Below, one piece after another: positions 11,031 through 33,460 of a stretch of DNA of 33,460 nucleotides. The DNA lies in IMG/VR virus record IMGVR_UViG_3300011116_000205, positions 1-33,460 of that record; one strand, written 5' to 3'. A program made the translations under genes and the position numbers. The notes beneath the pieces were generated by a model. That model did no database searches. It was not told where the DNA came from and was given only the letters and a program-made list of their open reading frames with translations. Source of the stretch: a virus. The first letter of the stretch is position 1. Each line of letters begins with the position of its first letter.

Positions 11031-11065
11031 GCGTTACCGATAAATAAATTACGAGGATGCACACA

Positions 11066-11245
11066 ATGTTAACCGCCGAAGATATTAAAGTCCGACTAAC
11101 TAACTCAAATTTAAGACGTGTCGCCCAAGACGCTGGCATACACCCTAGCACTCTTTATAGATTTTCTAAGATGGAATCTAAGCCATCGTATGCGACCATC
11201 AAGCTACTTAGCGACTACTTTGAGAGTCGCTCATGGCTGATCTAA
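11066..11245 (+). CDS. Small helix-turn-helix regulator
   Basis: A 59-residue protein. The segment LRRVAQDAGIHPSTLYRFSK is a clear helix-turn-helix (AQDAG turn, STLYR recognition helix), followed by MESKPSYATIKLLSDYFE, giving a minimal Cro/XRE-like fold. The ATG at 11066 is chosen because GAGG ends 9 nt before it; an in-frame ATG at 11057 directly abuts that site. It is the first gene of the rightward operon and overlaps the primase gene by 13 nt. It may control the twin promoters just upstream, possibly binding CGATAAA words. No larger repressor is seen, so a Cro-like role is the simplest guess. Confidence 0.78.
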   Translation: MLTAEDIKVRLTNSNLRRVAQDAGIHPSTLYRFSKMESKPSYATIKLLSDYFESRSWLI

Positions 11246-13254
11246 CTAAAATTCTAGGTGATTGGTCGCCATCTAGTCCAAAACAAATTGACCCACCAGA
11301 GATACAGCTATTTAACGCCATCCGGTCGGCGGGGCTAGAACCTCCGGCAGATATCAGGTTAGATGGCAGGCTGCATCGTTTTGCGTCCGGCACAAAGGGC
11401 GGTAGTGGACACGGTGATAAGTCGGGCTGGTATGTGTGCTTTGGTGACGGCATCCCAGCAGGCAGGTTCGGCGACTGGCGGTCTGGGGTGGAGATGTCAT
11501 TCCGGGCAGACATTGGAAGGACTCTATCTCCATTCGAGGAGATGTCTCACACCAATAGATTGGTAGAGGCTCGATCACTGCGGGATGCTGAGACAGAGAA
11601 GAAGCAAGAGGTCGCCGCCAACGTGGTCGATACGATCTGGTCGGGCTGCACTCATGCGACCACCGACCATCCGTACCTAAAGCGCAAGGGCATCGACGCT
11701 CATGGCGCTCGTGTTACGGGTGACGGTCGGCTCGTTCTGCCTCTGTATGATGAGAACTCTATCTTATGTTCATTACAGTATATAGATTCCGATGGAGACA
11801 AGAAGTATCACACCGGAGGGGCGACCGGCGGGAAGTTCTGGATGGTAGGCGCATTCGATGAGCCGGGAACTCTGTATATAGCAGAGGGATTTGCTACAGC
11901 GGCAACAATTCATGAGCAAACCGACCGACCATGCGTAGCAGCGTACTCCGCATCTAATCTGGTCAAAATTGCTGGAATCATGCGTAACCGTCACGGAACA
12001 AATCAGGACATTGTTATCGTTGCCGATAATGATGAATCCGGCGTGGGCCAGTCCCATGCAGACCAAGCGTCAGCACTCTATAAGACGCGCACAGTAACCC
12101 CTCCAGAGAGGGGGGATGCAAATGATTATGTGGCGGCTGGGCATGACCTGTCAATCCTGCTTGTACCGCCAAAGCTAGATTGGCTCGTGCAGGCAGACGA
12201 GTTCTGTTCCAAGCCAGAGCCTATTACTTGGCTGGTCAAGAAGTGGATTCAGTCAGAGGCGCTCATCATGGTGCATGGCCCGTCAGCGGGTGGCAAAACC
12301 TTCGTAGTCCTAGATTGGATTCTCAGGATGGCGGCAGATATTCCTGATTGGTGCGGTGAGCAGCACAAGATAAAGCCCGGTGGTAATGTTGTGTATCTGG
12401 CGGGCGAGGGTCATAAGGGCATAAAGTCCAGAGTAGCTGGCTGGAAGCATTACCATCATGTGCCGCGTCTCAGAATGCACATCTCCCGTGATGGCTGCGA
12501 TCTGAATACAAAAGAAGGTCTACAACGTGTGGTCGATAACATCAACAGCCTTAATCAGAAGCCTACTATTATCGTTGTAGATACCCTGCACCGGTTCTTG
12601 CTCGGGGACGAGAACTCGAGCGTTGACACCAAAGGTATGCTGGATGCCTGCTCTATTCTGATGTCTAAATATAAATGTACGGTGCTGCTGGTGCATCACA
12701 CTGGTGTCTCTGAAGAGACTCAGCACCGGGCGCGAGGATCGTCAGCATGGCGTGGGGCGCTCGATATTGAGATCAGTATTGTCCCTAGCAAGCATCGCGG
12801 CGGCCCAATCGAGATCGTCCAGCGCAAGAGTAAAGACTCTGAATTGACGGATTCGGTCTGGGTAGAGCTTGAAAGATTTGCCGTTCCGGGGTGGGAAAAT
12901 GAGGATGGAGAACCTTCGATGGCGGCAGTTGTAAATCAAATTGATGCCCCACAAGAGGTCAAAAAGGACTCAAAATTATCGGTCAATATGAAGGTTTTTG
13001 AGAACGCATGGTGGAGTGCAAATGCGGAAGTTAGGGATGGCAAACCGTACCTAAGTAGGTCTGGTTTGGTCGAAAAATTGCAGGCTGATGGGGTGTCGGA
13101 AACGCTAATTTCGAGAAAATTGAGGCCGGGAAGCTCGGATCAGCTAATTGGGTCACTTAGGATGGGCGAAACCATCGTTGACCATGATAATGGCTGGCTG
13201 GTCAATGATTTGGTATGGTCTAACATACTGATGTTAAACAAGAACTCAAGATAG
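11233..13254 (+). CDS. TOPRIM primase with RepA-like helicase domain
   Basis: A 673-residue replication protein. The first about 115 residues may hold a DNA-binding or primase accessory part (GWYVCFGDGIPAGRFGDWRS). A TOPRIM domain follows with LYIAEGFATAATIH near 214-227 (catalytic Glu) and VIVADNDESG near 261 (D-x-D). The C-terminal half is a RecA-fold helicase: Walker A GPSAGGKT at 349-356, Walker B TIIVVDTLHRF near 445, and LLVHHTG near 484, as in hexameric RepA helicases. It would unwind the origin and prime DNA for the host polymerase, as the genome encodes none. Its start overlaps the HTH gene. The GTACC array begins right at its stop codon. Confidence 0.92.
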   Translation: MADLTKILGDWSPSSPKQIDPPEIQLFNAIRSAGLEPPADIRLDGRLHRFASGTKGGSGHGDKSGWYVCFGDGIPAGRFGDWRSGVEMSFRADIGRTLSPFEEMSHTNRLVEARSLRDAETEKKQEVAANVVDTIWSGCTHATTDHPYLKRKGIDAHGARVTGDGRLVLPLYDENSILCSLQYIDSDGDKKYHTGGATGGKFWMVGAFDEPGTLYIAEGFATAATIHEQTDRPCVAAYSASNLVKIAGIMRNRHGTNQDIVIVADNDESGVGQSHADQASALYKTRTVTPPERGDANDYVAAGHDLSILLVPPKLDWLVQADEFCSKPEPITWLVKKWIQSEALIMVHGPSAGGKTFVVLDWILRMAADIPDWCGEQHKIKPGGNVVYLAGEGHKGIKSRVAGWKHYHHVPRLRMHISRDGCDLNTKEGLQRVVDNINSLNQKPTIIVVDTLHRFLLGDENSSVDTKGMLDACSILMSKYKCTVLLVHHTGVSEETQHRARGSSAWRGALDIEISIVPSKHRGGPIEIVQRKSKDSELTDSVWVELERFAVPGWENEDGEPSMAAVVNQIDAPQEVKKDSKLSVNMKVFENAWWSANAEVRDGKPYLSRSGLVEKLQADGVSETLISRKLRPGSSDQLIGSLRMGETIVDHDNGWLVNDLVWSNILMLNKNSR

Positions 13255-13255
13255 T

Positions 13256-13361
13256 GTACCGCTGTACCGTACTGTACCGGAGCGTACCGGTACGTTTTGG
13301 TACAAAGACGAGAATAGTGTACCGTACCGTACCCCCCTCTTTAGAGGGGGTACAGCGGTAC
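13256..13361. repeat. Dense GTACC/GGTAC word array with 13-bp terminal inverted repeat
   Basis: Eleven GTACC or GGTAC words occur in 106 bp: forward at 13256, 13264, 13274, 13284, 13319, 13324 and 13329, inverted at 13289, 13299, 13349 and 13357. The outer ends are a perfect inverted repeat, GTACCGCTGTACC (13256-13268) and GGTACAGCGGTAC (13349-13361). It lies directly after the primase-helicase gene, before an AT-rich promoter. Candidate functions are replication origin, operator array or structured RNA. The ORF across it is an artefact of the repeats. Confidence 0.85.
13329..13353 (+). terminator. Strong GC-rich hairpin downstream of the primase gene
   Basis: GTACCCCC (13329-13336) plus CTC pairs with GAGGGGGTAC (13344-13353) around a TTTA loop with one bulged C. 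It is a 10-bp stem, thermodynamically strong. No T-run follows, so intrinsic termination is uncertain. It may instead act as a cruciform within the GTACC array. Confidence 0.5.
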
Positions 13362-13395
13362 GCTCGATGTGCGAAATTTCAGTACGATAAAAAAC

Positions 13396-13426
13396 TTGAC
13401 ATATATTATGGAAGGTTTAATATATT
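13396..13426 (+). promoter_or_regulatory. Rightward promoter with perfect TTGACA
   Basis: TTGACA at 13396-13401 is followed by an AT-rich stretch with two possible -10 boxes: TAATAT at 13418 (spacing 16) or TATATT at 13421 (spacing 19). It is flanked by the inverted words CGATAAA (13385-13391) and TTTATCG (13428-13434). A small dyad, GGTC-GCTGT-GACC, follows at 13436-13448. It should drive the small-gene operon from 13475, possibly under repressor control. Confidence 0.7.
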
Positions 13427-13474
13427 ATTTATCGAGGTCGCTGTGACCGAGAGATGACAAATCTGGAGATAAAA

Positions 13475-31894: not shown

Positions 31895-33189
31895 TGTCTT
31901 ACAACGGGAGTGGGGTATTCACAATAAATACGGCTGGACAACCAGTCATTACTGGTACAACCATCTCCAGTACAACATTTAACAGTCTTACGGCAGATCT
32001 AGCGACTGGTCTGACTACAGCACTGACTAGGGATGGTCAGTCTACTCCTACCGCTAATATCGGTATGGGCGCGTTTAAGATCACGAATCTTGGCGCTGGT
32101 ACTGTTGCCTCTGATGCTGCTAGGCTCGATCAGGTACAGGGTGGTGCTGCTACATTCATCACAGTAACTGGGACTGACACTCTTACGGGTACAGTCTCCC
32201 CTGCGCTATCAGCTTATGCTACAGGCAATCAATTTAGCTTCTTAGTTGCTAATACAAATACTGGCTCTGTAACGCTCAATGTAGACGGTATTGGCGTTAA
32301 GTCGATTACGAGGACTGGTACTACTGCTCTAGTTGCTGGAGACATGGTTGCAGGTCAGGCAGTCGAGATTATCTATGACGGTACGCGCTTCCAATTGGTT
32401 AACGGCAACTCATTTACCAATCTTAAAGTCTCAGGAACTCTAGGTGTTACTGGTGTAGCTACTTTCACAGCACAGCCAATAGTATCGAGTCTGACTGCTT
32501 CACTACCTGTATTTACAGACGCTTCTAAGGGTCTAGTAAGCAACACAATGACGGGTACTGGTAACGTAGTTATGTCTACAAGCCCTACTCTGGTAACACC
32601 AGCACTAGGTACACCTGCAAGCGGAGTAGCCACTAACCTCACGGGGCTACCGTTAACCACTGGTGTAACTGGCACACTGCCAATAGCCAATGGTGGCACT
32701 AATGCGGTAACGGCTGCTGCTGCTAAGATCAGTTTAGAGGTAATTAGTGCTGCTACAGGCTCAGAGATTCTGCCTACTGGAACGACAGGACAGAGAGATG
32801 CAGTCCCATCAGCAGGGTTCTTACGGTTTAATACAACCAGCTCAGAGTTTGAAGGATATAATGGCGCAGCATGGTCAAGCGTTGGCGGTTCAGCAATAAC
32901 GAACGATACGACCACAGCGACTAACCTATACCCAGCATTCTTAGGCGCTACAACTGGTACTGCTACAGCAATATACACAGGCAACGCTAACTACCTCTAC
33001 AAACCTTCTACTGGTGAATTGAGTGTTAGAGCGCCAATAGCAAGCAATGGATTAGTGCTTAATTCGTCTACTGTATCGTCAAGCTATACGATAGCTACTG
33101 GATTCAATGCTACTAGCTGTGGGCCTATAACGGTATCTGGTGGCGTTGTGGTAACGATTAGCGCAGGTCAACGATGGTGCGTTCTCTAG
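31894..33189 (+). CDS. Tail fibre, main module
   Basis: A 431-residue fibre. Its N-terminus (MSYNGSGVFTINTAGQPVIT, TTISSTTFNSLTADLATGLT, TALTRDGQSTPTANIGMGAF, KITNLGAGTVASDAARLDQV) is the conserved start of many podophage fibres and probably the part that binds the tail. A beta-rich shaft follows. The low-complexity fibre repeats are here (MSTSPTLVTPALG, TPASGVATNLTG, LPIANGGTNAVTAAAAK). The C-terminal part (residues about 290-431) contains TGQRDAVPSAGFLRFNTTSS, EFEGYNGAAWSSVGG, an attachment or tip element seen in other fibres. GGAGG 8 nt before the TAATG start. Confidence 0.83.
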   Translation: MSYNGSGVFTINTAGQPVITGTTISSTTFNSLTADLATGLTTALTRDGQSTPTANIGMGAFKITNLGAGTVASDAARLDQVQGGAATFITVTGTDTLTGTVSPALSAYATGNQFSFLVANTNTGSVTLNVDGIGVKSITRTGTTALVAGDMVAGQAVEIIYDGTRFQLVNGNSFTNLKVSGTLGVTGVATFTAQPIVSSLTASLPVFTDASKGLVSNTMTGTGNVVMSTSPTLVTPALGTPASGVATNLTGLPLTTGVTGTLPIANGGTNAVTAAAAKISLEVISAATGSEILPTGTTGQRDAVPSAGFLRFNTTSSEFEGYNGAAWSSVGGSAITNDTTTATNLYPAFLGATTGTATAIYTGNANYLYKPSTGELSVRAPIASNGLVLNSSTVSSSYTIATGFNATSCGPITVSGGVVVTISAGQRWCVL

Positions 33190-33198
33190 GAGATATAA

Positions 33199-33460
33199 AT
33201 GGCTTCAACTATTGCGGCAATAACAACTGGTACTGGCGGGGTAGTAACCACAGCAGACGCTTCAGGTAATCTCTCATTACTCTCAGGTGTAAATACAGTT
33301 GTCGCTGTGACCTCTGCGGGTGCTACTGTAACTGGTACTCTGGCGGCTACGGGTGCTGTGTCAGGAACTACAGGTACGTTTACTGGTGCAGTTACAACGC
33401 CATTAAGCTACGTTCGAGTAAACACTGCGAATGGCTACGGCTCAACTAACACTAAGATTA
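33199..33460 (+). CDS. Tail-fibre-like protein, N-terminal part (continues at base 1)
   Basis: The 5' end of the gene whose 3' end is at 1-489. The ATG has AGGAG 7 nt upstream and follows the 31894 gene by 9 nt. It encodes MASTIAAITTGTGGVVTTAD, ASGNLSLLSGVNTVVAVTSA, then GTLAATGAVSGTTGTFTGAV, a low-complexity shaft typical of fibres. The last 127 bases duplicate 1-127, so the window holds these codons twice. Joined over the circle, the protein is about 207 residues. Confidence 0.78.
   Translation, partial: MASTIAAITTGTGGVVTTADASGNLSLLSGVNTVVAVTSAGATVTGTLAATGAVSGTTGTFTGAVTTPLSYVRVNTANGYGSTNTKI
33334..33460 (+). repeat. 127-bp direct terminal overlap with bases 1-127
   Basis: Bases 33334-33460 are identical to bases 1-127. 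The length of exactly 127 is a common maximum k-mer size in short-read assembly, so the overlap most likely marks a circular or circularly permuted assembly. A physical terminal repeat is less likely, because the overlap lies inside a fibre gene. The unique genome length is 33,333 bp. Confidence 0.92.

Follow-up and report, generated by a model that had tools for sequence, protein, structure and literature searches.

Judged from sequence, the closest known system to the locus described here is alpha/crr of the satellite phage P4, in which primase, helicase and a C-terminal DNA-binding domain share one polypeptide and, immediately 3′ of the gene, short words (8-bp TGTTCACC) occur in both orientations. 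In the plasmid RSF1010, oriV carries iterons together with hairpin priming sites. SaPI Rep and SCCmec Cch2 are initiator helicases reported to read, through their C-terminal domain, short iterons directly 3′ of the gene, the Cch2 word being AAGTG (PMC7581432). A stem-loop origin conserved in structure, not in sequence, lies 3′ of the primase-helicase-winged-helix gene of pRN1 and phage BIP-1 (PMC4234260), and in the PLE satellites of Vibrio cholerae the DNA-binding domain of RepA_N changes together with the iterons of ori, and the two are exchanged as one module (PMC8263062). Literature searches gave no description of an origin for the phage group studied here.

The window analysed is the virus record IMGVR_UViG_3300011116_000205 at its full length of 33.46 kb. 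Its primase-helicase gene ends in a stop codon at 13252–13254, and a word array starts directly 3′ of it. The features of the locus are:

11057–11245, + strand: 62-aa HTH_3/Cro-like protein, its gene overlapping the start of the primase gene
11233–13254, + strand: primase-helicase, 673 aa
Residues 214–302 of the primase-helicase: Toprim_3 primase domain with EGFATA motif (Pfam match)
Residues 319–493: RepA-like AAA_25 helicase domain (Pfam match)
Residues about 581–672: C-terminal winged helix (predicted structure)
13093–13140, + strand: codons 621–636, predicted recognition helix and following loop, co-varying with the word
13256–13361, no strand assigned: word array, proposed origin with putative initiator sites, 11 GTACC/GGTAC in both orientations
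13256–13268, + strand: left arm of the perfect 13-bp inverted repeat
13349–13361, − strand: right arm of the same repeat
13333–13350, no strand assigned: palindromic hairpin CCCCCTCTTTAGAGGGGG with CTTTAG tip and without T-tract, proposed strand-opening/priming element
About 13386–13434, + strand: AT-rich segment with promoter-like sequence and ATATATTA/TAATATAT inverted repeat

The initial annotation had described eleven copies of a 5-bp word in 106 bp, a perfect 13-bp inverted repeat, a hairpin and the adjacent primase-helicase gene, and all of them were confirmed. The array holds 7 GTACC and 4 GGTAC; among 20,000 sequences of 106 bp from a first-order Markov model, no 5-mer occurred more than 9 times (the maximum reached), against 11 in the array, and the other 106-bp windows of the record contained at most 6 copies. 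The bounding inverted repeat (GTACCGCTGTACC) is matched at 13 of 13 bp, the hairpin CCCCCTCTTTAGAGGGGG sits inside it, and the array region folds far better than shuffled sequences both as RNA (z −5.2) and as DNA (z −4.7). An Rfam search gave no match, and no DnaA box was found near the array of the studied phage. The cumulative GC skew of the record is dominated by gene strand and was uninformative on the origin.

Within the 673-aa protein, the EGFATA motif lies at residue 218, and the helicase domain, of RecA fold, matched RSF1010 RepA (1g8y) over residues 323–503 (profile E 1.8e-6). The AF2 model of the whole protein has middling confidence (pLDDT 74), whereas the C-terminal domain was modelled as a winged helix with high confidence (pLDDT 93), the model placing a helix at 623–629 plus a loop within 621–636. 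The C-terminal profile had no significant match among PDB sequences, and a Foldseek search with the domain gave none with E < 0.001; VIA-align gave only generic winged helices (Z up to 6.9) among the matches listed, from which P4 1ka8 was absent.

The primase of P4 alpha is homologous to that of the studied phage (EGYATA/Toprim_3; hhalign E 1.4e-22), and here too primase, helicase and a putative C-terminal DNA-binding domain occur in one polypeptide whose gene is directly followed by short words in both orientations. In contrast, the P4 helicase is of the D5/SF3 type (D5_N/Pox_D5) and that of the studied phage is a RepA-like AAA_25, the P4 C-terminal domain (1ka8) gave no profile alignment with the studied C-terminus (hhalign prob 0.2), and the hairpin with a CT-W-AG tip described below was not seen in P4 crr. 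The edge of P4 crr (L287:4280–4300) adjoins a DnaA-box-like TGTGGATAA, as do many arrays of the relatives. Like SaPI Rep, the candidate initiator gene is immediately followed by its array, but SaPI and SCCmec are staphylococcal elements with D5- or DUF927-type helicases, not AAA_25, and with AEP or separate primases. The helicase half belongs to the RepA family, as in RSF1010; unlike RSF1010 with its RepA, RepB′ and RepC, a primase (TOPRIM, not RepB′-like), a helicase and a putative word reader are united in one protein. The systems of pRN1 and BIP-1 differ in having an AEP primase, an SF3 helicase and one long stem-loop with no word array, and PLE in having an N-terminal RepA_N domain and iterons of about 30 bp, without a primase-helicase fusion. 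These comparisons suggest that the system works like P4 alpha/crr and SaPI Rep/ori, with a helicase of another type. The initial annotation knew of no phage origin that uses this motif, which was fair for the motif, but the layout resembles P4 crr and the SaPI origins.

Relatives of the primase were gathered from phage records, viral contigs and genome contigs, which gave 190 with a complete gene and downstream sequence and 90 that were non-redundant at 90% identity. Repeats were scanned in steps of 150 nt between −6000 and +3000 relative to the primase stop, and the threshold was set at six or more occurrences of a single 6-mer. Windows that overlap the first 300 nt 3′ of the stop reached this threshold in 67–74% of the 90 loci, whereas all other offsets reached it in 0–5%; the presence of the array at the same place in relatives, which the initial annotation had proposed as a check, was thus borne out by equivalent arrays. 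The layout is common to about 80 related phage lineages, and the words, obtained by a simple EM search, are different: GTACC in close relatives of the studied phage, GGTACA in Idiomarinaceae phage 1N2-2, GGTTCA in Alteromonas phages PB15 and XX1924, GGGACA in Salicola phage CGphi29, GGTCCG, GGTAAC, GGAAC, AGGGTCA, AGGGGG and others in metagenomic phages, and GGTACG also among the relatives.

Several loci had at first been scored as array-less. In L233, L236, L237 and L108 the repeats overlap the gene end; in L086 the frame is shortened and a GGGTCA array lies further on (0–400 after the in-frame stop); and the primase stop of L065 is separated from a GGTAAC array by about 1 kb of other DNA. 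The intervening DNA of L065 (L065:6183–7300) is bacterial-looking, and beyond it words, hairpin and flanking DnaA boxes (TTATCCACA) stay grouped. The clade that truly has no array also differs in its recognition segment, which carries an insertion. The array-less loci (within L186–L199, L204–L207, L210 and L213–L225) have no array, no hairpin and no intergenic gap after the primase. The C-terminal domain of L086 is apparently truncated by the changed frame, and its GGGTCA array is nevertheless kept.

A hairpin of at least 8 bp was present in 80% of array loci, compared with 3% of shuffles. Stems and words vary between loci while the tip stays near-constant, following CT-W(1–5)-AG in 52 of 80 array loci versus 2 of 2109 control windows. 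Perfect DnaA boxes (TTATNCACA) were found at 1.14/kb within 400 nt of the primase stop and at 0.065/kb elsewhere, a 17-fold enrichment. Boxes near the array occur in 18 lineages, whose words are of several kinds, and often two of them precede the array and one follows it.

The word was then compared pairwise with the protein sequences, using identity of the core, of the C-terminal domain and of the upstream HTH protein. Word similarity was correlated with C-terminal identity given the core (partial r 0.29, 0 of 2000 permutations), and no residual correlation was found with core identity given the C-terminus (−0.09) or with the HTH protein (−0.03). When all 633 variable columns were scanned, each of the top 14 fell in residues 613–671, with a peak at 621–636. 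Among 37 disjoint sister pairs, the recognition segment followed the word with a Spearman coefficient of 0.77 (p 5e-8) and a partial coefficient of 0.60 once the core and the remaining C-terminus were controlled for, the lineages in these tests being still partly related; the core gave a partial of −0.16, and the HTH protein 0.21, which was not significant. Individual segments go with individual words. KPGSA, RPGSA or RPGSS occurred with GGTACG in 6 of 6 lineages and KPGYP with GGTCCG in 4 of 4, and further pairs are AERTVRNMVNPSY with AGGGTCA, KPRTIENDLSPSY with AGGGGG, SEASAKVYIKPSAT with GGAAC and SEASAKQYxKPSV with GGTAAC. Since the shifts of the word track the predicted DNA-reading tip of the primase-helicase, the replication protein and its address are seen to co-evolve. 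The co-change of amino acids and word is a covariation, which makes the C-terminal domain a putative reader.

The word is most likely read by the C-terminal winged helix of the primase-helicase itself. Of the two binders named in the initial annotation, the 673-residue protein is thus favoured by the covariation, which does not support a role of the 62-aa HTH protein as array reader. L272 and L277, whose cores are 93% identical, share neither C-terminus nor word, the whole module having been replaced. A contrary pair, L201 and L181, combines a word similarity of 0.72 with a recognition identity of 0.18. Directly after the primase stop of L257 lies a GGTACA-like array, and its C-terminus is unrelated to the usual winged helix, possibly a convergent reading of the same word.

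The array, its position, the conserved layout, the clustering of DnaA boxes in relatives and the covariation of word and winged helix are results of computation. With equivalent arrays at the same place in relatives, DnaA boxes in 18 lineages and a word that follows the C-terminus, they strongly support the proposal of an origin with initiator sites, and the array is very probably the replication origin or its essential core, bound by the winged helix of the primase-helicase, with the hairpin as a candidate site of opening or priming. We infer word binding, oligomer loading, melting and hairpin priming. Copies of the primase-helicase would bind the word in both orientations through the C-terminal winged helix and, the words lying after the gene, the helicase would assemble and load on the DNA just 3′ of its own gene. 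The duplex would open at the hairpin and array, the primase half of the same protein would probably lay the first primers on both strands at the hairpin, whose tip would be the priming site, and in many relatives host DnaA would probably assist from the flanking boxes.

A broader picture is possible, although we put it forward only tentatively. One protein would read the address word, open the DNA and prime at the constant-tip hairpin, and address and reader would fit each other as a lock and key that can be exchanged. They would have been re-keyed many times, either through minor changes of the recognition helix and loop or through replacement of the whole domain, perhaps because competitors that target origins, or co-infecting relatives, exert pressure, and the code from amino acids to words could then be read for a winged helix. 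For most aquatic tailed phages the origin has not been mapped, and the array rule locates candidate origins across a large phage group while naming the likely reader and its reading residues. Natural matched and mismatched pairs, such as the readers of GGTACG and GGTCCG, whose main difference is PGSA versus PGYP, bear on how initiator specificity changes, and the constant-tip hairpin is a candidate priming site.

Other roles of the array were weighed against the origin. In P4, the alpha gene is directly followed by crr and its ten type I words, which occur in both orientations, and the annotated ori is more than 4 kb away; by analogy the array could be a site required in cis by the primase-helicase, with synthesis beginning at a second site elsewhere. 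We consider this unlikely: no second array was found in the studied record, the clustering in relatives occurs only after the primase, and DnaA boxes and hairpin accompany the array there. An element that folds strongly directly after the last codon could also terminate transcription of the primase operon or affect the stability of its mRNA. However, a T-rich tail follows the hairpin in only 2 of 64 relatives, and the tail in the studied phage, TACAGCGG, has no T-tract, which argues that the hairpin is not a terminator; with L065 keeping words and hairpin 1 kb from the gene, and the covariation of word and winged helix left without explanation, this role is scarcely credible.

The AT-rich segment after the array had been proposed as a melting region. 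The segment is present and could melt, but this role is less sure, for it contains a good sigma-70-like promoter match (TTGACA-16-TAATAT, 13396–13423) and an inverted repeat, ATATATTA/TAATATAT, looking like an operator; because of these it may instead serve the downstream early genes. The promoter match overlaps the inverted repeat (13396–13425), which is kept in the close relatives L010 and L013. With such a promoter directly 3′ of the array and the HTH gene just upstream of the primase gene, the array itself might be an operator through which the HTH protein or the primase-helicase controls this promoter and the early genes after it. That is highly improbable, since the word does not follow the HTH protein, at least ten sites with a hairpin and, in relatives, DnaA boxes are more than an operator requires, and the strict promoter pattern was found in only 8 of 80 array loci.

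The GTAC palindrome was also considered as a restriction or methylation site, a reading that was rejected because the words differ between phages and many are not palindromic. GGTAC is over-represented across the whole record (78 versus 44 expected). Its clusters at 2660–2847 and 31954–33377 lie on one strand inside coding sequence, with spacings that are mostly multiples of three, and probably encode Gly-Thr.
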